Virus record (IMG/VR): IMGVR_UViG_3300016457_000426
Coordinates: 1-59,238 of that record
Reading direction: 5' to 3' (one strand)
Source: a virus
Length of the DNA stretch: 59,238 nucleotides
Position 1 is the first letter of the stretch, and the number at the start of each line of letters is the position of its first letter. Under the pieces are notes generated by a model. It had not been told where the DNA came from, searched no databases, and worked only from the letters and a program-made list of their open reading frames with translations. Positions 20,496 to 57,341 of the stretch are shown one piece after another. The translations under genes and the position numbers were made by a program.

Positions 20496-21191
20496 TTAAA
20501 AAAGATAAACTGTATTTTTAAACCGTCTTTCCAATTGTTGTAAAGTCCAGTCTGGTTTAAATTTATTCCAACACTTGTCCAATTCCATCATCCGTGCCCA
20601 TAAATGAGGATAGAAACGATAAATATTTTCTAAGTCTTTCATCCTCCTAAATGGACACCAAAAACAGCCTGTGCGACTTATTTTTTCATATAATCCATTC
20701 CAATCAAAACCATAGCGGTAACATATCTTTAATGCTTCTTGGCTATCAATCCCAAATTCTACAAGGGGGTAACTTTCTTGTTTACGATATTTCATTCTTT
20801 TTATTTCACTTGCACTTATTCCCATAAGCCTATATATATTTTTTAATTGCTTTTTCTTAAAGTATAACTTCTCTGGCAAACACTTAAAAATTCTAGTGCA
20901 CCACCTTAAATGCATCCGAGGCCATCCATAACCAGTATATCCCTTTCTAGTTTTGTGTTCACACATCCAATATTCAAAATGTCTCTCAGGTTTTAAACAA
21001 GTTATTTCAACTCCAAGTTTCTTTTGAACTAAATTTATATGTGTATATATTTCTGGGAACTCCGCTCCAGTATCATTAAAAATGATTTCATCAAATGGTA
21101 TTTGATTTTCTAATAGCACTATTAACATAGCAGTGCTATCCTTACCACCAGAGAAATAAACAACTCTATATGGCTTATTAGAGTTCGGCAT
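20496..21191 (-). CDS. PAPS-reductase/PP-loop family protein with Cys cluster, 231 aa
   Basis: The PP-loop SGGKDST (14-20) binds the pyrophosphate of ATP or PAPS as in CysH, TtuA and DndC-type proteins. MHLRWCTRIFKCLP and SRTGCFWCPFRRMKDL supply four Cys for an iron-sulphur cluster or zinc. Phage-coded members often accompany DNA sulphur modification or nucleoside modification; no DndA/B/D/E partner is seen here. The start overlaps the previous gene (TAATG). It is the last gene of the leftward arm. Confidence 0.75.
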   Translation of the reverse strand: MPNSNKPYRVVYFSGGKDSTAMLIVLLENQIPFDEIIFNDTGAEFPEIYTHINLVQKKLGVEITCLKPERHFEYWMCEHKTRKGYTGYGWPRMHLRWCTRIFKCLPEKLYFKKKQLKNIYRLMGISASEIKRMKYRKQESYPLVEFGIDSQEALKICYRYGFDWNGLYEKISRTGCFWCPFRRMKDLENIYRFYPHLWARMMELDKCWNKFKPDWTLQQLERRFKNTVYLF

Positions 21192-22262: not shown

Positions 22263-22949
22263 TTATCTAACCTCCAAATTATACTTTGGAAACTCTTTTG
22301 TAAATGCCTCCAAATCTTCTTTAGTATATTCATTTTTTTCTTTATAAAAAGGTGTTGGACGGGCTACCTGTAAACAAAGAAGGTGGTTTTGGCCAACTAT
22401 ATAAATAATCTTCTCTAAGTCTGTGAATGTCAATAAACTGCTATGCACGGTAGTTCTGAATTCACAAGGAAGTTTAGCACTTTTAAGAAGAGTGACTGAC
22501 TTTTTAACAGGTTCAATTGGGAGCTTGGTATTGGTGACAGCTTGATATTTATCCCAAGGGGCTTTAATGTCCATAGCAATATAATCCACTAGTTTCTTTC
22601 TTATAAGCAAGGTCAACATAGAAGGCCTAGTGCCATTGGTATCCAGTTTTACCGCAAACCCCATATTCTTTAACCATGCACAGAAGGCAGGTAAGTCTTT
22701 ATGTAAGGTAGGTTCACCACCAGTAATAACCACTCCATCAATAATCCGCTTCCTTGTTAATAGAGATTTGTGGATTTTTTCGTAAGGAATGGAGGGCTGT
22801 AGACAATCTACTAATTGGAGATTGTGGCAATAAGGGCAACGAAAGTTACATCCTTGAGTATAAATAACAGCAGATAAATGGTTAGGGAAGTCAATCGTGG
22901 AAAAAGGAGTAAATCCTCCAATATTTAGGTTAAATTCTTGCTGATTCAT
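22263..22949 (-). CDS. nrdG: Radical SAM activase, NrdG-like (anaerobic ribonucleotide reductase activating protein), 228 aa
   Basis: GGFTPFSTIDFPNHLSAVIYTQGCNFRCPYCHN carries the CxxxCxxC motif (C34, C38, C41) for the 4Fe-4S/SAM cluster, with VVITGGEPTLH (GGE motif) and later LDTNGTRP, as in the NrdG2/TIGR02495-type family. This enzyme generates the glycyl radical on NrdD. No NrdD is coded in the genome, so it would act on the host enzyme to raise deoxynucleotide supply under anoxia. It overlaps the phosphoesterase gene by four bases (ATGA). Confidence 0.85.
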   Translation of the reverse strand: MNQQEFNLNIGGFTPFSTIDFPNHLSAVIYTQGCNFRCPYCHNLQLVDCLQPSIPYEKIHKSLLTRKRIIDGVVITGGEPTLHKDLPAFCAWLKNMGFAVKLDTNGTRPSMLTLLIRKKLVDYIAMDIKAPWDKYQAVTNTKLPIEPVKKSVTLLKSAKLPCEFRTTVHSSLLTFTDLEKIIYIVGQNHLLCLQVARPTPFYKEKNEYTKEDLEAFTKEFPKYNLEVR

Positions 22950-24844: not shown

Positions 24845-27800
24845 TTACAGACCATAATTTAATAGTCCTGTTGTGGATTTTGGCCTTGTAAAAGACTGTA
24901 TTTCTTTAGTCTTTTTTCTTTTTAAAAATTCATACTTTGCTCGTCTTTTAGCATAACGCAAATATCTTGTTAGCTCCTTTGGTGTCATTTTCAAAAGAAG
25001 GTCTAGCTGGTCTTCATCGTTTAAAGCACTAAAAACTCTAATGTCAGGTGCTAACCTTATAGTCTTCCAGAACCTTTTACTTAAAACTATATTCTTCTCT
25101 TTCACTTCTTTTAAAGTCTCTACAAACTCAGCCCAAGCCTTCTTTCTTCTTTCAGGGTCATGATGATTTTCTGCAATCCAAAGCAAGCTTCTTAACTGTG
25201 CTTTGATTTGATTTGTTTCATATTTTTCTCCACGCTTTTTAATTCCTTGAAACCGCTTAGAATATAAATTGTAAATTTCATTTTGAATTTTTGTCCTTGT
25301 TATATAACGAGGTGCAACGCCTATTCCTAAAATAGGTAGAATGCTTTTTTCTCCACTGATTTTTTCATGCCGTATAAAATTAGCAATTGAAATTGGGACT
25401 AAACCGCTTGTGCCCAAAAATACAGCGACTTGCTCTGCCTGTTTAAGTAAGGGTGCATTGGGGTCTCTTATTTCTGTTTTGAAATAGTCTTGATTAGTAA
25501 ACAAATCCAAAGTTAAACTAATTACTGGATTTAATTTATGCCAAGCAACAGTAGATATTCCTTTAAAAATTCCATGCTTTTCTAATGCAGCTTTAGCAAC
25601 CCAGTATTCTTTAGTCATTGCAGGCAATTGTAATCTCTCATCACTTCCATCAGGGTTTTTCTCGCCCGTTTTAGGATAGAAATAATCTAACAATTCTTGA
25701 GGGGGGTTTCCTGTAAAAAGATAACACATTAATCCGCCAATCATTCCAACTACAAAAGGATATGTAATAGAGAATTGTATCCTGCCAGTCCACAAAGGCA
25801 TTTTCTTTTTCATAATAGCTTCTTTAATGTCAAGACCTGCTCCTCCCCATTCTCTTATAGTCCCTAATTGCCAACTTAACGATAAAGAACTCGCAACAGC
25901 CAAATCCCTTACAGTTCTATTCCAGAAAAGATTATCATAAACCATCTGTCCAAAATTATTATCCATACTATCCCATATCATTTGTAAGGCTCTATCCAGC
26001 TTTGCTCCTTTTACTTCTGGATGTGCTGATGTAAAATCTTTTGCTTGCTTTAAAAAAGCTCCTATTTTCAATCTAGGCACATACCATTCCATAAGAGGTG
26101 CTTGTATTTTCTCAGCAATAGCTGGAATTAATTTAATAGTTCCTCCTATAATGTTTTTCTTTCTAAAATCTCTTATTGCTTTCTTCCAGTTATCTTCAAG
26201 CCCTATTTTATAAGCCTTAGAAAGTTTATATCTTGCACCTGCTCTTATTAAATAATTTACAATTTCTTTATCTAAGTCAGTTTGGATACTTCTCTTGCCA
26301 AGCCAAAGTTCAACAGCTTTATGCCCTAATTTAAGAGAAGAAACGGGGCCAGTTAAAATATCTGCAAAACGGTCTAAAGCAACGTCAATATTTCCTTTTA
26401 AAGTATTGTTTGTAAGCCTCATTACATTATAAGTTAAGTCTGATAAAGTAACATTCAAAAAGTGAAATCCGCTAAGACCAAGTTTAACAGCGACAAAAGG
26501 ATTTTTGACTGCCATAAATGCTTTGAAAACCTTACCCCAATTATCTGGCCGAGACCATAAAGAAGGAGAAAGCCATTTATCTACTATGTTGGCAGCTTCT
26601 TTGGGCATTATCCATTCGCCTGTCCGCACCATTCCCTCTTTGCCTCTAAAGAAGACTTGAAGGGACGGGTCTTTAGGAACTACCCAGCCTTTCGGTGGTT
26701 TTTTAAAACCTCTTTTAAATTTCAAAAGTTCATATGCTTTCATTTCATTAAGAAAGTCTTTCCGCATCTTATGATGAAGTGCACTGAAATATCTCCAAAG
26801 AACCATCTCTTGGGGATTGGTAGTAATAGGTTCTAGTCCTGCTTTAATTCCATCACTCATTAACTTATAAAATTTATGTTTATAATACCCTGGTGTGGTA
26901 TTTAACTTTTTCTGTATCCATGCTTCTGCTTTTTCTCTGTTTTTCCATATTCCAGGCCAATAATTTTCTAAATAATCAAGCCTTTCATTAACGCTTTTAT
27001 CTATCTCATAAGCTTTATCAAGCAAAGCACGGTGTTGTTGAGCCATGTCTTTAACAACTTTACTATCTTTACCAAACTCAGAAAAATCCGTATCACCTTT
27101 CATCATCTTATCAATATAAAGTATCTGCTTATCTACAGGCTGTCTGTCCCACCATTCATGAGAAGTTTTTGTTGCTTCTACAATGGCATCAATCTCTCTT
27201 GCCCTTTCCGCCATTAATCTTCTAGCAGATATTCTAACCATTGCAGCAGGTTCTTCAGGTGTAAATATTTTATCTACTTCTCCTGTTTTCTTAGCTATAT
27301 CCTTTGTAATTACAGGTTCTTTTTTTACTTCTTTTTTTAGCCCTTCCTTTGCCTTTATTCTTTCAAGATATTCCTTAGCCCAAGCAATGCGTTTTGAATA
27401 TTCCTCTATAGGTTCTCCTAAACGATATTCAGGAATTTGTCTTAATCCCCAAATCTCATTCGCTTCTGCATGAATATTAGTTGCCTGTCGTATAGTTGTC
27501 CCTGAAAATGCGGCATCAGTTAAAATATTTTTACGGATTAACTCAGTAGAAGTATTGTATAAATCTTTGGTTTCTTCATATTTACCACTAAAAACAGCAA
27601 AGACATGATTTGTGCCAAATTCTCTGACACGCCCCCTTATATAATTTGTTATTTGTTCAACATTAGTAAATAACCTAGCAGGGACTTCCTGTATAAGTCT
27701 AATCTTATTACCTGAACAATATATCAATGTTACAACCTTAGAATCGTCTTTAAAACTACGGCTAATTAACGCTAAATCTTTTTCAGTTTTTATTTTAAAA

Positions 27801-30800
27801 CCTAACAATCCATGAGGTTTTGTTGGAGATAATAAAGGGTCAACCCAATCTTTAGGAATGCCTGGTAAGGGCAAAACATAAGTAGTGCCATTTCCTTTAA
27901 TTGCACCATATTTACCAGAATTTATTATAATGTGATGCTTTAACCCTGGTATTTTATCTGCACAAGCCAATGTAAAATTTATATCATCTAAAGAAGGAGA
28001 GGGATTACCGCTGGGATGGTTATGCACTAGATAGTATCCATCAGCCCCAAGCCTTTTCATTCTATTTTTAATTTCCCATATAAATTTAGGAGAAAGTTCG
28101 CTTGCAACAAAATTAGGCATTCTATTTGTTATGCCTTCATGAGCAACTATTTTATTACCCTTCATATAGAATATTCTTAAAGTTTCAAATCTTGGGTCAC
28201 GATAGACTTGGGCTACAACTGCCAAATCAGCGGGATGTTTAATTTCTTTACCTCTTAAATCTACTCTGCCTGTTTTGATGAGGTCTTTGCGTATTCCTTC
28301 GGCAATTGTTTTAACTCCGCCACCTTCTTTTGCTGGTTTTGTTTTTTCAGAAACTGGAATAAACTTTGGTGGCTTAGAAATAACCCGTTCCAGTCCTTGT
28401 AAATCACTAAGGATTTCTTTTCTTGTTTTTGATGCTGTTTCCTCATAGTCTTTATCCCTTACTATATATTCTTCTCCATGTTCATGAACTTTAATTGTTT
28501 TTTCAGGTTCAGGCTTCTTTTCTACAATTCCTTTTTGAGCAAACTTTTTTGCTTCTTCTAAGGATTTGAAAAACTTTGTTTCAATGCCTTTGTTAATAGT
28601 TACTTTCTTTCCTTCGTATGTAGTTTCATAAGGCTCAAACCTTATAACTCTCCATTGTTCTGTTTCTGGGTCTGCTTTGATTTGATACCATGTCTTTTTC
28701 TCTGGATGACGCACTTCATATAAATTTTCTTTGGGTTGAGTTATTATAGGTTCTTTCTCTTTAACTTCCGCTTTTGCTTCTTTAACAAGCTCAGGCTTAA
28801 TCCCATAAATCCATAAAGTTTCTGAAGGAACTGTTTTATTAGCTTTAACAGCATTCATTACTTCTATAAAATGAGGGTCTAACATTACAATGTGTTTTAC
28901 TGGTTCACCTTTTGCTGTATCATGCAACATAGCTACGGCATCGTATCCGTGCTTATGTAACCATTGAGCAAAAAGACTACCTTTTATATGTTCATTATAT
29001 AATTTTCTTTGTCCTATTTTTACTAATTCAGCGGTTACAATAGACATGTTATTTCTAAACAATTCCCAAATAGGAACTTTGTCTAAATCACCATGATGCG
29101 TTTCAAAGCCATATTTATCAAGTTCTTCTATTAGTTTTTTGGGCACATCTTTCCAACTCCAATTTTTGGGTAATTCTATTCCATTTTCTTTGGCAACCAA
29201 TTTTGCAAGCTCTTCATAACTTATTTCTGTGCCATAAGGTGTAAGGTCTAAAATTTTACGAGGTTTTATTGTAATTTCTTTCAATTTTCCTTCTGTTCTA
29301 GGTTTGTGGCCATGTAAAATTTCAAATGTTTTTAATCCTTCTTTTTTGCCAAAACGTTTTTGATAATTTTCAAGAATAGAGAAATCTCTTTTTAAATAAT
29401 GTTTGGCATCTTCTTTAGAAGTAGTAAAAAATTCAAAAGGAGCAACAGGCCTTTTATCTTCCCATCCTAATACTTGTTCGGGACTTCTAATGGAACTTAA
29501 TTGTCTTACTCCTGTAATAGTAGGTAATTCTCCTCTATAGACTTTAAATGATTTATCTCCTTTATCATACTTTTTTTCTTCAGGAATTTTACTACGAATT
29601 TCCCACCATTCTTTTGGAGAAATTTTCCATATTTCTTTTGTTTCTTTAACAGGCTTAACCTCTTTCTCTGCCTTAATCCAGTATTCTGCCCTAGATGTCC
29701 AAGGCATATATTTTGTTTTGCCTTCAGGAGTTTTAACTCTATGATAAACAAAGCCTGTTTTACGCTTCCCTATTTTGCCTGTGGCTATCCCTTCACCTTC
29801 TTTGCCTTTGTATCTCCATTTGACATGAGTTCCTTCGGTTATTTCTTTATTGTAATCCTTTACTGGTTGCCATTCGGTTTCTGCTTTAGCAACTTCCTTA
29901 CCCTTTTCTTCAAAAGACCGTGGAAATAACTCTCTTGCTCTTTTCTCACTTAAACTAGCCCAAGTAACCTTACCTGTGTTTTTATCCACCAGCTTAACCA
30001 CATAATCAACGCCAAGCCTATGTTCAGGAAATTCCTCACTGGCTTTACTTAATTCAATGGGATAAGAATTTTCATAAAGTGTCTTAGTTAAAGGCACTAC
30101 TGGAGGTTTTTCTTTTGGAGGTTCTTTTTCAGGCTTAATTTCTGGCAAGGCCTTCTCTTTCTTAGCCTTAGTAAGCAGTTTATTTGCTTTTTCAATTAAT
30201 TCATTGGGAAATGGCCTTCCATCACGCCTATAATCACAAAGGTCTTTATATAACTCATCTATTTCTTGATAAATTTGCTCTCCTGTCAGTTTCTTTTCCA
30301 TCAAATCTATACGAATGTTATTAACCTTTTTAATTAATTCTTTATCTGCTTTCCCTTTTTTTGAAGACTCATAAATTTCTTTCTCTACTTTCCCTAATTT
30401 TCTAAATAACTTTTCTTGCTTATCCATAAGAAGTGCTCTTTCCGCAATAACAGATTTTAATTTCTTTGGTTGTTGTTTGTCAGGCAAAGACCTAAGTTTT
30501 TTGTCTGGGTCAATCCTATTTATTTTTTGAGTAAGTTTTTCTATTTTCTTTTTGTTATTTTTTATTTCTTCTTTTAATTTATTAGCTTGTTGTTGCATCT
30601 CTGGTAAAATTTCCTCTTTCTTACCTTCTTCTATTATCTGCTTCTGGCGTATTTCAGCCATTTCTTTTTGCAGTTCTGGATGCTCTTTCCAGATTTTCAT
30701 CCACTCTGCACTGCCAGGTTCAACACCTTCGTAAGGCTTGGCTTTCTTTTCAGGCTTAGGCTTTTCTTTGACTTCTTTTGCTGGAGGCTTCTCTTCAGTA

Positions 30801-32359
30801 ACTTTCCTTTCTTCTCTAGCCTTTTCTCTTTTTACTTCACCTTCAGGAACTATAATCTCTCTCTTTCTTTCTTCAGGAGCTGTCTCAATTTTTGGTTTTT
30901 TTTTGCCCTTTTCATACCTTTCTAAGGTTAATTTTTCTTCAGCGGTTCTAAGGAATGCTGGTTTGGCCTGTATCCGTGCTATCTCGGCAGGAATACCCTC
31001 GGGTGCTACAATTTCTTTTGCAGGAGGTTTTTCTTCTTCTCCCAATACAACAGGTCTTTCTTCTCTATAAGGCTTCTTTTCTGGTTCTACTACTGGTTTT
31101 TTAGGTAATAACTCAGCAACATTAACACGCTCTGGTGGAGGTTTGGCCTGTTCTTCTATAATAAGTTTGTTAATCTCATCATCCAGCCCTAGCCTTTGTA
31201 TTTCGGGATGTTCTTTTAATGCAAATAATTCATCAATACCAAAGGGGTTACCAGCTTCATCTCTACCCCTAGCCAAATCTCTTTTAACCGCAGTTATAAT
31301 AGCTTCCCTTGCTCTTTCTGGTTCTACAACTTCTGCTTCTGGTCTTTCAGCTTTTTTTACAGGAGGTTTTTCTTTTGAAGGCAATGTAGTTTCCTTTATT
31401 TCTTTAACTGCCTGTCTTACTTCTGGTCTTAATTTTTCATTGCTAGAAAGAGCATCAAACTCTTTTTCTATATCTTCAAAACGGCCTTCTCTGTAAGCCT
31501 TCTCTATATTTCTTTGAGCTTTATTAAGTATAGTTCTTTCTATGCCTACTTGAGTTTTTTTAGCTAGCCAAGGTAGCATAGAAAATAACGTCCCTAAGGC
31601 CATACCATGAGCAACGCCTTCTTCTATTTCTTCTTTAGTTGGTAATCTTCCTTCTTTAGATGCCTGATAAGTAGCTTCGGCTGCACCCAAAGCTCCAAAC
31701 TTAGGTATTTGATACCTGCCTCCTAATCTTCCATAGATAACTCCCCATACTAAATTTTCACCTCCTTTCTTTAAGGCACTAATTGTTCTTTCTGGGATAG
31801 TTTCTCCTTCTTTAGCTCCTGCGATAGCACCTCTTATCCCCATTCCCACTGCAAAATCAGGTATTCTAGATAATATTTCTGCTACCCTAGGAATAACCCT
31901 GCTACCTAAAGACAATTTAGTAGCACCACCTGTCATAACATCTAGAGGAAAAGTAGTTCCAAGACTTCCCAAAGTTTCCATAAATTTATATCCTACTTTT
32001 TCCAGTTTACTTTTGGGTTGAGTTCCCCGTTTTATTCTCTGGATTTCTCTTTCAGCAGGTTTAATAAGGCGACTTCCAGGAGAAAAACCTAAAAGTCTAT
32101 TGATACTGGTTGCTGTTTCTAAAGCTCCTGCATAAAATCTTTTAGCTAATCCTTTTACAAAATCCCTTTGCTCTTTTTCAGGGAAAGTAGCCCAAGGTTT
32201 CATTGCGGTAAACGCTGCTTTTTCTAAAACTCCTTCTTTTTGTTCAGAAGCAAAGGGGTCATAATCAACAGGAACTAATTTAAGCCCCTGTGTTTCTGAT
32301 GGTTGTGCGGGTTGCTTTGTTTCTTCAAAAGGGTCGTAATCAACTGGAGTTAATGGCAT
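24845..32359 (-). CDS. Giant polyvalent virion protein with JAB/RadC-like and ART-like domains, 2504 aa
   Basis: The N-terminus twice carries PVDYDPF (about 5-36), a motif I associate with ejected polyvalent phage proteins. Then come long Lys/Glu/Pro-rich linkers (about 330-870), an SH3-like unit (KGEGIATGKIG), an ADP-ribosyltransferase-like segment (FKVYRGELPT, FFTTSKEDAKHYL, YDAVAML; about 935-1150), and a JAMM/RadC-like peptidase (HNHPSGNPSPSLDD, His at about 1446 and 1448). The last third (about 1735-2504) resembles large polyvalent protein-associated domains and includes one hydrophobic segment (about 2180-2210). Such proteins are thought to enter the cell with the DNA and disarm host functions. 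It follows the tail genes and ends LLNYGL. Confidence 0.75.
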   Translation of the reverse strand: MPLTPVDYDPFEETKQPAQPSETQGLKLVPVDYDPFASEQKEGVLEKAAFTAMKPWATFPEKEQRDFVKGLAKRFYAGALETATSINRLLGFSPGSRLIKPAEREIQRIKRGTQPKSKLEKVGYKFMETLGSLGTTFPLDVMTGGATKLSLGSRVIPRVAEILSRIPDFAVGMGIRGAIAGAKEGETIPERTISALKKGGENLVWGVIYGRLGGRYQIPKFGALGAAEATYQASKEGRLPTKEEIEEGVAHGMALGTLFSMLPWLAKKTQVGIERTILNKAQRNIEKAYREGRFEDIEKEFDALSSNEKLRPEVRQAVKEIKETTLPSKEKPPVKKAERPEAEVVEPERAREAIITAVKRDLARGRDEAGNPFGIDELFALKEHPEIQRLGLDDEINKLIIEEQAKPPPERVNVAELLPKKPVVEPEKKPYREERPVVLGEEEKPPAKEIVAPEGIPAEIARIQAKPAFLRTAEEKLTLERYEKGKKKPKIETAPEERKREIIVPEGEVKREKAREERKVTEEKPPAKEVKEKPKPEKKAKPYEGVEPGSAEWMKIWKEHPELQKEMAEIRQKQIIEEGKKEEILPEMQQQANKLKEEIKNNKKKIEKLTQKINRIDPDKKLRSLPDKQQPKKLKSVIAERALLMDKQEKLFRKLGKVEKEIYESSKKGKADKELIKKVNNIRIDLMEKKLTGEQIYQEIDELYKDLCDYRRDGRPFPNELIEKANKLLTKAKKEKALPEIKPEKEPPKEKPPVVPLTKTLYENSYPIELSKASEEFPEHRLGVDYVVKLVDKNTGKVTWASLSEKRARELFPRSFEEKGKEVAKAETEWQPVKDYNKEITEGTHVKWRYKGKEGEGIATGKIGKRKTGFVYHRVKTPEGKTKYMPWTSRAEYWIKAEKEVKPVKETKEIWKISPKEWWEIRSKIPEEKKYDKGDKSFKVYRGELPTITGVRQLSSIRSPEQVLGWEDKRPVAPFEFFTTSKEDAKHYLKRDFSILENYQKRFGKKEGLKTFEILHGHKPRTEGKLKEITIKPRKILDLTPYGTEISYEELAKLVAKENGIELPKNWSWKDVPKKLIEELDKYGFETHHGDLDKVPIWELFRNNMSIVTAELVKIGQRKLYNEHIKGSLFAQWLHKHGYDAVAMLHDTAKGEPVKHIVMLDPHFIEVMNAVKANKTVPSETLWIYGIKPELVKEAKAEVKEKEPIITQPKENLYEVRHPEKKTWYQIKADPETEQWRVIRFEPYETTYEGKKVTINKGIETKFFKSLEEAKKFAQKGIVEKKPEPEKTIKVHEHGEEYIVRDKDYEETASKTRKEILSDLQGLERVISKPPKFIPVSEKTKPAKEGGGVKTIAEGIRKDLIKTGRVDLRGKEIKHPADLAVVAQVYRDPRFETLRIFYMKGNKIVAHEGITNRMPNFVASELSPKFIWEIKNRMKRLGADGYYLVHNHPSGNPSPSLDDINFTLACADKIPGLKHHIIINSGKYGAIKGNGTTYVLPLPGIPKDWVDPLLSPTKPHGLLGFKIKTEKDLALISRSFKDDSKVVTLIYCSGNKIRLIQEVPARLFTNVEQITNYIRGRVREFGTNHVFAVFSGKYEETKDLYNTSTELIRKNILTDAAFSGTTIRQATNIHAEANEIWGLRQIPEYRLGEPIEEYSKRIAWAKEYLERIKAKEGLKKEVKKEPVITKDIAKKTGEVDKIFTPEEPAAMVRISARRLMAERAREIDAIVEATKTSHEWWDRQPVDKQILYIDKMMKGDTDFSEFGKDSKVVKDMAQQHRALLDKAYEIDKSVNERLDYLENYWPGIWKNREKAEAWIQKKLNTTPGYYKHKFYKLMSDGIKAGLEPITTNPQEMVLWRYFSALHHKMRKDFLNEMKAYELLKFKRGFKKPPKGWVVPKDPSLQVFFRGKEGMVRTGEWIMPKEAANIVDKWLSPSLWSRPDNWGKVFKAFMAVKNPFVAVKLGLSGFHFLNVTLSDLTYNVMRLTNNTLKGNIDVALDRFADILTGPVSSLKLGHKAVELWLGKRSIQTDLDKEIVNYLIRAGARYKLSKAYKIGLEDNWKKAIRDFRKKNIIGGTIKLIPAIAEKIQAPLMEWYVPRLKIGAFLKQAKDFTSAHPEVKGAKLDRALQMIWDSMDNNFGQMVYDNLFWNRTVRDLAVASSLSLSWQLGTIREWGGAGLDIKEAIMKKKMPLWTGRIQFSITYPFVVGMIGGLMCYLFTGNPPQELLDYFYPKTGEKNPDGSDERLQLPAMTKEYWVAKAALEKHGIFKGISTVAWHKLNPVISLTLDLFTNQDYFKTEIRDPNAPLLKQAEQVAVFLGTSGLVPISIANFIRHEKISGEKSILPILGIGVAPRYITRTKIQNEIYNLYSKRFQGIKKRGEKYETNQIKAQLRSLLWIAENHHDPERRKKAWAEFVETLKEVKEKNIVLSKRFWKTIRLAPDIRVFSALNDEDQLDLLLKMTPKELTRYLRYAKRRAKYEFLKRKKTKEIQSFTRPKSTTGLLNYGL

Positions 32360-40701: not shown

Positions 40702-42864
40702 TTATAAATCTTCAGCATTGTTATTTAAAAAATCTCTTATTTCCTGATTGGTTGCCCTTGGATACCATTGTTTAACCAAACAAGCTGCTCCTGAGACATG
40801 AGGGCATGCTCCAGAATTATGAACTACTATACCATTAGCAAGAAAATTATGTGAATTTTCTACTTCAATATCAAATACCTCTCTCATACCCACTGGCTCT
40901 ATATTTTTGACTGTCGCAGAGTGAAACCAATTTATATCTGCTACCTTTGACAATCCTGTGCTTTTTCTATGACCATTAAAATTAATCCATAAAGTATATG
41001 ATATTCTGTATTCTTTAAGTTTGTTTGGTGAATTAGGAGCTTTATTTAATCTTGTTCTTTCTCGTATATCCGTAGCTTTATATCCTACATATCTACATAA
41101 ATGTTTCAATCCATTAGCTAATTCCTTAGACGCAATTTCTAATCTACAACAATTGCAATTTTTTGTGTAATAACCATCTCCTCCCAAAAAGCCATGTATA
41201 AATGCTTTAATTTTATTATGAGATATGTGATATATCCATTGTGGAAGGAATGCTTTTTGATGTGGTTGTTTTAATCCAAGCAAACTAAGAACTAAAGCAA
41301 GTCTTTTGCTACTAAGCACATACCATTTATCTGCTTCTTTAAACCTCACATTAAAAACATCCTCAAATGCTTCTTTAAATGTCTTAGTTTTTTCTTTATT
41401 TCCTTTTGCTAAATATATTCTATTCTTTTTATGGCTTTTTTGAACCCATCCATCAGCAAGAAAGAAACCCAATGCCATTGCCATTTTTTCAGTTATCAAC
41501 GAATCAAAAAAAGAGTCAATGGTTTCTGGCAATTTATTAACAGCTACTAATAAATCACCAGTCCGTAATTCACTTACTGGTTTCCAGACCAATCTACTTG
41601 ACCTTGTTTTACTAACTAAGAATGGATGATTTGATGTAGCTTTTATATTTTTCCCATCGCTAGTCTCTATTTTAAAAACTTTTTTAATCCCTTGTCGTAA
41701 TAATTTTTTAACTCTATTTTTTGTAAGCTGTCCTTTATCAAAACAAAAAACTTCATCACCTTCTTTGAGGTCTTTGATTTGTTTAGGCCCTGACGGAGTA
41801 TAAATCTCAGTATCACCAGTAAGACATGTCCCATTTGCCCAATACCAGTAATCTCCTACGAAATGCTCTCCATCTCCATACATATCTAAATGCCTGCCAG
41901 GCCAACATCCCGTTACTCCTACTCCTGGTGCAGCTATTTCTACTTCTGGTCCTCTACTTGAAAACCATGCAACATATTTTTGATAATCTATTGCTGCCAC
42001 TGCCATACAACTGCTATATTTGGCTGGATAAGTAACACTATCCATCCCAGGACCATTATTACCAGCGGCTACTACAATAATAATGCCTCTTGCCCATGCA
42101 TTAGCACAAGCATTCTCAACCGTTTCATCAGACGCAGTTCCTCCTAAACTCATAGAAATAACATCTACTCCTTGCTGAGTTGCCCAATCAATGCCCGCAG
42201 CTAAATCTGCCCAAGTTCCAGAACCTTGTGCACTTAAAACTTTCACTGCATATAAATCTACTTCAGGAGCAACTCCTTTGTAACCAATATCATTTGCTGA
42301 TGCACAGGCAATACCCGCACACCACGTCCCATGTCCGTGGTCATCAAGAGGGTCATTTGATCCGTTAATGGCATTATAACCAGCTACATATCTATCTTTT
42401 AAATCAATATGATTATAAGCTACTCCTGTATCAATAATAGCCAATTTAATTCCTTTACCTGTATAACCAGCATTCCAAGCTGTTGGAGCATTTATAGCTG
42501 ATACTCCCCAATCAATATTTTCATTATCTGGGTCAAAATCAGGATAAGGATAACTAATCATAATTCCTACTTCGTCTTCTTTATGCTCAACAATCTTTTC
42601 TATTATGTCTGTATTTTTCTTTAAATCCTCTATTTCTTTTGCCGTTAAATCACAGGTAAAAATCCTATCATCAAAACTAAAAGTCCATTTTCTTTTTGTG
42701 CCGTAAAATCGTGAAATAGCCTCTTGTAATTTTATTCTTTCAGAATAAAGTCCATCTACTTTAGGGCCTCTTAAATATACTGTTACTCTCCTTTTTTCTT
42801 CTGGACTGATAGTTCTTCTGGTTCTTACTTTTCTTACAGGTTCGTGTAGTGATATTTTTTTCAT
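40702..42864 (-). CDS. Subtilisin-like serine protease interrupted by an intein at the catalytic serine, 720 aa
   Basis: Residues 125-346 form a subtilase core: Asp145 in LAIIDTGVAY, His178 in DDHGHGTWCAG, and oxyanion Asn269 in AAGNNGPG. At residue 346 the conserved NGT stops and a 337-residue intein begins with Cys347, ending in His682-Asn683; the chain resumes with Ser684 in SGACPHVSG. Splicing would restore GTSGACPHVSG, where Ser684 is the catalytic serine. The protease can work only after splicing. The first 125 residues are basic then alpha-beta, like a propeptide. The C-terminus stops at NNNAEDL, earlier than most subtilases. It lies between tail genes, so a virion or host-surface protease is likely. 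Confidence 0.92.
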   Translation of the reverse strand: MKKISLHEPVRKVRTRRTISPEEKRRVTVYLRGPKVDGLYSERIKLQEAISRFYGTKRKWTFSFDDRIFTCDLTAKEIEDLKKNTDIIEKIVEHKEDEVGIMISYPYPDFDPDNENIDWGVSAINAPTAWNAGYTGKGIKLAIIDTGVAYNHIDLKDRYVAGYNAINGSNDPLDDHGHGTWCAGIACASANDIGYKGVAPEVDLYAVKVLSAQGSGTWADLAAGIDWATQQGVDVISMSLGGTASDETVENACANAWARGIIIVVAAGNNGPGMDSVTYPAKYSSCMAVAAIDYQKYVAWFSSRGPEVEIAAPGVGVTGCWPGRHLDMYGDGEHFVGDYWYWANGTCLTGDTEIYTPSGPKQIKDLKEGDEVFCFDKGQLTKNRVKKLLRQGIKKVFKIETSDGKNIKATSNHPFLVSKTRSSRLVWKPVSELRTGDLLVAVNKLPETIDSFFDSLITEKMAMALGFFLADGWVQKSHKKNRIYLAKGNKEKTKTFKEAFEDVFNVRFKEADKWYVLSSKRLALVLSLLGLKQPHQKAFLPQWIYHISHNKIKAFIHGFLGGDGYYTKNCNCCRLEIASKELANGLKHLCRYVGYKATDIRERTRLNKAPNSPNKLKEYRISYTLWINFNGHRKSTGLSKVADINWFHSATVKNIEPVGMREVFDIEVENSHNFLANGIVVHNSGACPHVSGAACLVKQWYPRATNQEIRDFLNNNAEDL
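40816..41826 (-). mobile_element. Intein with LAGLIDADG homing endonuclease, 337 aa
   Basis: It covers residues 347-683 of the subtilase. Splicing motifs are intact: Cys347-LTGDTEI (block A), TSNHPFLV with His413 (block B), VFDIEVENSHNFLANGIVVHN (blocks F-G). Two LAGLIDADG-type motifs, MALGFFLADGWV (about 463-474) and IHGFLGGDGYY (about 556-566), with an acidic residue each, suggest an active homing endonuclease. The nucleophile after the intein is Ser684 of the host protein. Confidence 0.92.
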
Positions 42865-55820: not shown

Positions 55821-57341
55821 CTATCTTTCTCTTATTGTTCTAACCAAATCTGGAGCGTATTCTTCTTCCTCATTATCAAAAAACCAATCATCAATCCCTA
55901 AATCTTTTATAGCTAACCTTTGCTCTACAGTAGCATACCCTTCATAGTCATCTTCTCTTTCATGGCCTTTCTCTAACATCTCTATCCTTCTGTCATGATA
56001 AGACTTTTCTTCTTCTGGTGTTACCATTGCAATGGGGTGTGCCATACAAATAAGACAGGCCGCATCGTAGCAGTGGTCTTCCTGTCCACCTTCTATATCT
56101 TCAGGGTCATCCTCGCTTACACACAACGCTGGAATAGTTCTGATAAAGTGCCTACAATTTTCATAAACCAATAACATCGGCGGTGCATCATCCAATATCC
56201 TTAACCTTTCTCTAAACTGTCTAATTTTAAGCTTTCTATTAGGGTCTCCAGCAGTAAGATAAATTCCATGCTCAGCAAAAATTTCAGCAGTAGAAGGCCC
56301 TTGGCCTCCACCTTTATAATCTGGCTTTTTATTAAAGCAATCAGGCCCTGCTAACCGAATTATCTCTCGCCCCCAAATACCCATCTTCTTTTCACGCTCA
56401 ATAACCCCCTGTGCTATTTCAGAGTCTGTTAATCTTAATCCTGTATTTGGTGCTTCTCCACATCCATACCATTCCGCAAAAAGATATATTCTTCCATCTC
56501 CATCAACCCACCACCACTGCCACGCAAAAGGAGCGCCAAAGCCCCAGTCAAAAGTTGAATATAAAGGAGCACCCCTAGGAATAGGCAGTGGCTTAATGAC
56601 ATGGTGTTCATAGCTAAAATTAAAAGCCTGCCCTACAAAAACATCCCAATCCCCTTCTAACCAAGCTCTCCTAAGTGCTGGGTCTTTAATGGCTCTTAAA
56701 CGATTAACATACTTAGGGTCTTTCTCACAAAGAATTTTATTATCCTCTAACTTAGAAAAAATAAAGACTTTGCTCTCACCATCCTTATCATAAGTAACCT
56801 TCCCGTAAGGAGCTGCTTCCACAAACATCATCTTAATAATATTTGAACCAGGCCCACCAGGGTTGCCAGTAAGAAACATATGACAGGGCACACCGTGAGG
56901 CGACCTTAAACACGCCTTTAACTTGTCAATCATTTGATAAAGAAAAGGAAAGTTTTGAGCCTCATCAATAGATATTTCTGTGTATTGCTGCCCTTGAAAG
57001 CTATCCACCATCTCCAAGTGAGTTACCGCTGTCATTGTAACCAAAGCCCCATTACGAAACCTAATAAAATTGGTTTGATGGTCTCCACCCGTTCTTTCAG
57101 CAGGCAATCCCTGACTAATTAACTCATCAATCCTTCTTCTTAACTCACCAAAATCCTTGAACTTCCTTCTTATAATTAACCCATTCCATGCCTTACCATA
57201 CCTCTGAGCACCTAATAAATGCCTTCCTAATAAACAATCAGATTTGCCACCACCCCTAGTTCCACCAAAAAAAATTAAATCACACGGACAGGTAGCAGCA
57301 GCAGTCTGAGGACCCGGTTGAGGTCTCCAAAAAACCTTCAT
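55821..57341 (-). CDS. terL: Terminase large subunit, 506 aa
   Basis: The ATPase has Walker A GGTRGGGKS (26-34), Walker B TEISIDEAQ (IDEA 125-128) and the coupling motif LTGNP (about 157-161). The nuclease has Asp265 in STFDWGF, Glu290 in FAEWYG and an Asp near CYDAACL. It translocates DNA into the prohead and cuts the concatemer. The start has GGAGGTAACA. It is the fourth gene of the leftward arm. Confidence 0.95.
   Translation of the reverse strand: MKVFWRPQPGPQTAAATCPCDLIFFGGTRGGGKSDCLLGRHLLGAQRYGKAWNGLIIRRKFKDFGELRRRIDELISQGLPAERTGGDHQTNFIRFRNGALVTMTAVTHLEMVDSFQGQQYTEISIDEAQNFPFLYQMIDKLKACLRSPHGVPCHMFLTGNPGGPGSNIIKMMFVEAAPYGKVTYDKDGESKVFIFSKLEDNKILCEKDPKYVNRLRAIKDPALRRAWLEGDWDVFVGQAFNFSYEHHVIKPLPIPRGAPLYSTFDWGFGAPFAWQWWWVDGDGRIYLFAEWYGCGEAPNTGLRLTDSEIAQGVIEREKKMGIWGREIIRLAGPDCFNKKPDYKGGGQGPSTAEIFAEHGIYLTAGDPNRKLKIRQFRERLRILDDAPPMLLVYENCRHFIRTIPALCVSEDDPEDIEGGQEDHCYDAACLICMAHPIAMVTPEEEKSYHDRRIEMLEKGHEREDDYEGYATVEQRLAIKDLGIDDWFFDNEEEEYAPDLVRTIRER

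Follow-up and report, generated by a model that had tools for sequence, protein, structure and literature searches.

How does a phage come to carry an intein exactly in front of the catalytic serine of a protease, and does an element at this position control the enzyme or does it simply splice out? We analysed a virus record of 59,238 bases, in the following called the window. The gene in question lies on the minus strand (40702..42864), the strand not being given in an earlier note on this DNA, and its open frame, read from 42864 to 40702, encodes 720 residues plus stop with 0 internal stops. Pfam assigns Peptidase_S8 (4.3e-52), Intein_splicing (1.2e-24) and LAGLIDADG_3 (8.7e-9) to the protein, while the NCBIfam models intein_Nterm (TIGR01445) and intein_Cterm (TIGR01443) match from residue 347 and up to residue 684, respectively, identifying the whole gene as that of an S8 subtilase split by an intein. 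Our preferred reading, to which we assign a probability of about 0.82, is that a mobile class 1 LAGLIDADG intein, splicing constitutively, resides at a new active-site insertion point in a phage S8 subtilase.

Pfam, NCBIfam and motifs delimit the intein to residues 347-683 (337 residues from Cys1 to His-Asn; 40816..41826, minus strand), and it carries the elements of a class 1 intein in every block. Block A provides the nucleophile Cys347, which is invariant in the intein alignment, block B (KATSNHPFLV; 41614..41643, minus strand) contains the TxxH signature with Thr410 and His413 (T410-S-N-H413), and blocks F and G (REVFDIEVENSHNFLANGIVVHN; 40816..40884, minus strand) contribute Asp665, the penultimate His682 and the terminal Asn683, followed by Ser684 at position +1. 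Motifs and alignment further reveal two LAGLIDADG endonuclease motifs with their acidic residues, i.e. ALGFFLADGW with Asp471 (residues 464-473; 41446..41475, minus strand) and IHGFLGGDGYY with Asp563 (residues 556-566; 41167..41199, minus strand), the second also being detected by Pfam LAGLIDADG_3. At the junctions NGT346 is followed by C347 and H682-N683 by S684-GACPHVSG, and in the alignment with six other subtilases the insert splits the GTS motif precisely after GT and before the catalytic Ser. Ser684 (codon 40813..40815, minus strand; PDB sequence matches and alignment) is the catalytic Ser of this motif and therefore also the +1 nucleophile of splicing. The earlier note had described an intein of 337 residues from Cys347 to His-Asn, inserted right before the catalytic serine of a phage subtilase with the same serine serving as +1 nucleophile, all of which is borne out, and its figure of about 383 residues for the spliced product agrees with our prediction of 383. 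An insert at these junctions by chance is excluded; both junctions were seen independently of the window assembly in two contigs from another sample, which contain a shorter insert.

The subtilase itself is made up of residues 1-346 and 684-720. The N-extein (residues 1-346, ending with Asn-Gly-Thr; 41827..42864, minus strand), delimited by alignment, PDB sequence matches and a fold model, forms the subtilase body with Asp145, His178 and the oxyanion Asn269, all three invariant in an alignment with six uninterrupted subtilases, in which S684 follows GT, completing the Asp/His/Ser triad and oxyanion Asn of peptidase family S8. The C-extein (residues 684-720, SGACPHVSG...NNAEDL; 40705..40815, minus strand) is supported by PDB sequence matches and alignment. 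Savinase and subtilisin DY, the closest relatives of known structure, align with it from their catalytic Ser onwards, and it is about 11 positions shorter than the family model at the C-terminus. An alignment-based AlphaFold model agrees with subtilisins to about 1.5 A across about 230 residues, with a good subtilase part and a low-confidence Hint part; a single-sequence AlphaFold prediction of the precursor was unusable (pLDDT 38) and was discarded. Residues ~1-112 form a putative propeptide as judged by position and predicted topology. The pro-subtilisin structure 3whi aligns with the precursor from residue 47, and a propeptide family search with residues 1-112 gave 0 matches.

A protein scan of viral contigs identified the same subtilase with a 139-residue mini-intein at the identical site in the two contigs mentioned above (L002 and L003), which originate from the same metagenome and count as one observation. 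Aligned with the window at the DNA level, the mini-intein has lost, in frame, a net of about 198 codons that cover the endonuclease, while it retains the N- and C-terminal splicing parts and all splicing residues in frame. The residues at the endonuclease boundary are alike (LPETIDSFF versus SLETFDFS), a likeness that fits an origin of the mini-intein by deletion. The exteins of the two alleles are about 94% identical, and the dN/dS values are 0.18 for the N-extein, 0.25 for the shared splicing part (12 changes only) and 0.21 for the C-extein (9 changes only); these estimates show purifying-type substitution at dN/dS of about 0.2 in the exteins as well as in the splicing part. The N junction is spanned by a 151-nt run identical in the window and L002, and the 27 nt that follow the C junction contain 8 differences (window 40789-40815 versus the L002 C-extein). 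This uneven distribution, at positions picked after seeing the data, suggests that local recombination or co-conversion may have occurred around the junctions.

According to the preferred reading, the intein would fold post-translationally and, following the known class 1 chemistry, form an N-terminal thioester at Cys347, which would be attacked by Ser684 before Asn683 cyclises, joining the exteins as ...ANGT-SGACPH... and thereby completing the triad Asp145/His178/Ser684. As the intein immediately precedes the catalytic Ser, no protease activity is expected of the unspliced protein. We infer splicing, endonuclease activity, precursor inactivity and protease function from the sequence, and most likely splicing proceeds efficiently and without conditions. 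Alleles lacking the intein would be cut by the endonuclease within the GTS region, the element being copied there, and the intein would lie where it does because it homed into a sequence not permitting imprecise loss and was retained in it; in the sister lineage the endonuclease would have been lost and the splicing domain kept. There is a precedent for phage inteins that separate a conserved motif from a nucleophilic residue (PMC5050341). What speaks against the preferred reading is the Thr at position -1, a beta-branched residue, since beta-branched residues at this position attenuate some inteins according to a reference cited in PMC4031507.

The host is a phage subtilase, as indicated by Peptidase_S8 together with the phage markers of the window, namely an SU10-type adaptor, a P22-like portal and a major head protein, and the gene has head-closure genes on one side and short fibre-like genes on the other. 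Elsewhere in the window, a 2504-aa ORF (24845-32359, minus strand) has a RadC-like JAB domain at residues 1429-1485 as its sole family match, and PAPS-reductase-family and radical-SAM proteins are phage-borne (20496-21191 and 22263-22949, both minus strand). Relatives of the intein were detected at 67 viral loci, among which only the sister alleles reside in a subtilase (0/65 of the others). The closest full-length inteins are found in the terminase large subunits L132 and L133 (30% and 27% identity) and have the same endonuclease layout. Phages related via the major head protein carry Hint/intein inserts in their terminases as well (L023:1736-3847, L040:608-3346 and L024:628-3153), those of L023 and L040 at the Walker A motif with differing lengths and that of L024 elsewhere, and the terminase of the window (55821-57341, minus strand) is devoid of an intein. 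That an intein of the terminase type jumped into the subtilase is plausible. Further Hint inserts were seen in tail-like proteins: in L004:3577-9957, L005 and L006:5692-8802 a large tail-tip-like protein contains, close to its start, a short Hint/intein-like insert (CFTKNTKILTP...FVHN) with a glycine-rich stretch behind it, and a minus-strand ORF of L128 contains a Hint insert (CFLGDT...LAHN) at about residue 748, after a polyglycine run in the C-terminal region of a tape-measure-like protein, whose Ala at +1 suggests that it cleaves rather than splices.

To judge the rarity of the arrangement we examined the best 80 of 470 viral stretches with subtilase relatives. Apart from the sister contigs, all 78 of these lack an insert at GT|S; 71 show an uninterrupted GTS by regular expression, the others an uninterrupted GSS or GTSS, and a few are truncated. 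A scan for the C junction (HN-S-x-A-x-P-H-[VI]-x-G) across 84,980 species with one genome each gave 10 matches and 0 subtilases, and in 2.9 million viral contigs the same scan returned the sister alleles and one chance match only. In viral contigs the N-junction motif matched the sister alleles, a single tape-measure Hint insert and otherwise chance sequences only. Such scans see certain motif spellings only (e.g. HN|SxAxPH[VI]), so other subtilase inteins may have been missed. Intein-free alleles of the same subtilase, a search for which the earlier note had proposed, did not turn up: a joined-flank pattern produced only chance matches in viral contigs, and apart from the mini-intein allele we encountered only uninterrupted viral subtilases of at most 48% identity to that of the window. 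With 0 empty alleles, homing and mobility stay a sequence-based proposal. In the titles, abstracts and term counts of the open-access papers searched, we found no description of an intein in a subtilase; one paper combining 'intein' and 'peptidase S8' concerns two features on separate proteins. S8 subtilases thus appear to be absent as intein hosts from every collection searched, which makes this an apparently new host and insertion site.

If splicing works, the subtilase might still be a degenerate or non-proteolytic accessory protein, leaving the active-site position of the intein without functional consequence. The S8 protease is absent from the five head-protein-related phage records examined, which marks the subtilase as an accessory gene, dispensable for the group, and the C-terminus is short. 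However, both alleles preserve the triad and the oxyanion Asn, dN/dS is as low as about 0.18 and the subtilisin fold is predicted with confidence, which renders this explanation unlikely.

Less probable still is a regulated switch, in which splicing would be slow or gated by temperature, redox, a ligand or the assembly state and the intein would act as a timer keeping the protease a zymogen. The position of the insert makes activity strictly splicing-dependent, the sister lineage keeps its splicing domain after endonuclease loss, the Thr at -1 could slow the first step, and the protein composition is mildly thermophile-like, a feature commonly read as pointing to temperature. Gated inteins are known (PMC5790916, PMC4031507). 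On the other hand, every canonical splicing residue is present including the penultimate His, the loss of which tunes some phage inteins (PMC5050341), and an element that cannot be excised precisely would be just as much expected to keep its splicing domain. The earlier note had combined inactivity until splicing with a timer or condition-dependent switch, of which the inactivity is expected from the position, whereas the switch finds no specific support. Cys347, through which it had suggested redox control, is the usual nucleophile of a class 1 intein, and one version of such control is weakened: Cys687 at +4, the sole further Cys near the splice site, is a Thr in the sister allele, ruling out a conserved C1/+4 disulfide for the lineage, although a more distant Cys may serve as partner. 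We regard as similarly improbable a reading in which a protease associated with the virion or with lysis has kept the intein for its activation, staying an inactive zymogen until splicing at the proper time or condition generates its catalytic serine, with the endonuclease-free sister being a domesticated form of this switch. Finally, a cleavage-only Hint domain (cf. bacterial intein-like domains) or a dead intein in a pseudogene, conceivable as splicing is deduced here from sequence, was rejected as very improbable in view of the homing endonuclease, the Ser +1 and C-extein exactly continuing the conserved motif, the frame intact in both alleles and the purifying-type substitutions in C-extein and splicing part.

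By comparison with known systems, the intein belongs to a familiar class in an unfamiliar host. The mycobacteriophage terminase inteins at the P-loop/ATPase site (PMC5050341) are likewise class 1 inteins in an active-site motif of a phage protein, and the P-loop inteins immediately precede the nucleophilic Thr, splicing thereby creating the active site, as proposed here. The terminase inteins of L132 and L133 have the splicing blocks and the LAGLIDADG layout in common with the window intein. In contrast to terminase inteins, the insertion site is GT|S of an S8 protease instead of an ATPase motif, and the +1 residue is the enzyme's own covalent catalytic nucleophile. Proteases with a serine nucleophile also host the Pyrococcus abyssi Lon intein, cited in PMC4031507, and the chloroplast ClpP intein (PMC5784728), the two proteases being of unrelated fold and compared here by host type only. 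Phage S8 subtilases of the same family (PHROG 3677; Bacillus phages Goe3 and Goe8, Moorella phage MTATph1), about 36-44% identical over matched stretches, have an uninterrupted GTS, unlike the window. RadA inteins with temperature- or ssDNA-gated splicing (PMC5790916) would serve as the template for a native switch, while no gating was seen for the window intein; in RadA inteins splicing is influenced by the loop that remains once the endonuclease is gone (PMC5790916). S8 subtilases would join the intein hosts, with one serine serving as both splicing and covalent catalytic nucleophile. The most useful part of the finding is the natural pair of a full-length intein in the window and an endonuclease-free one in L002/L003, which would show directly, with protease activity as an easy measure, whether endonuclease loss alters splicing.
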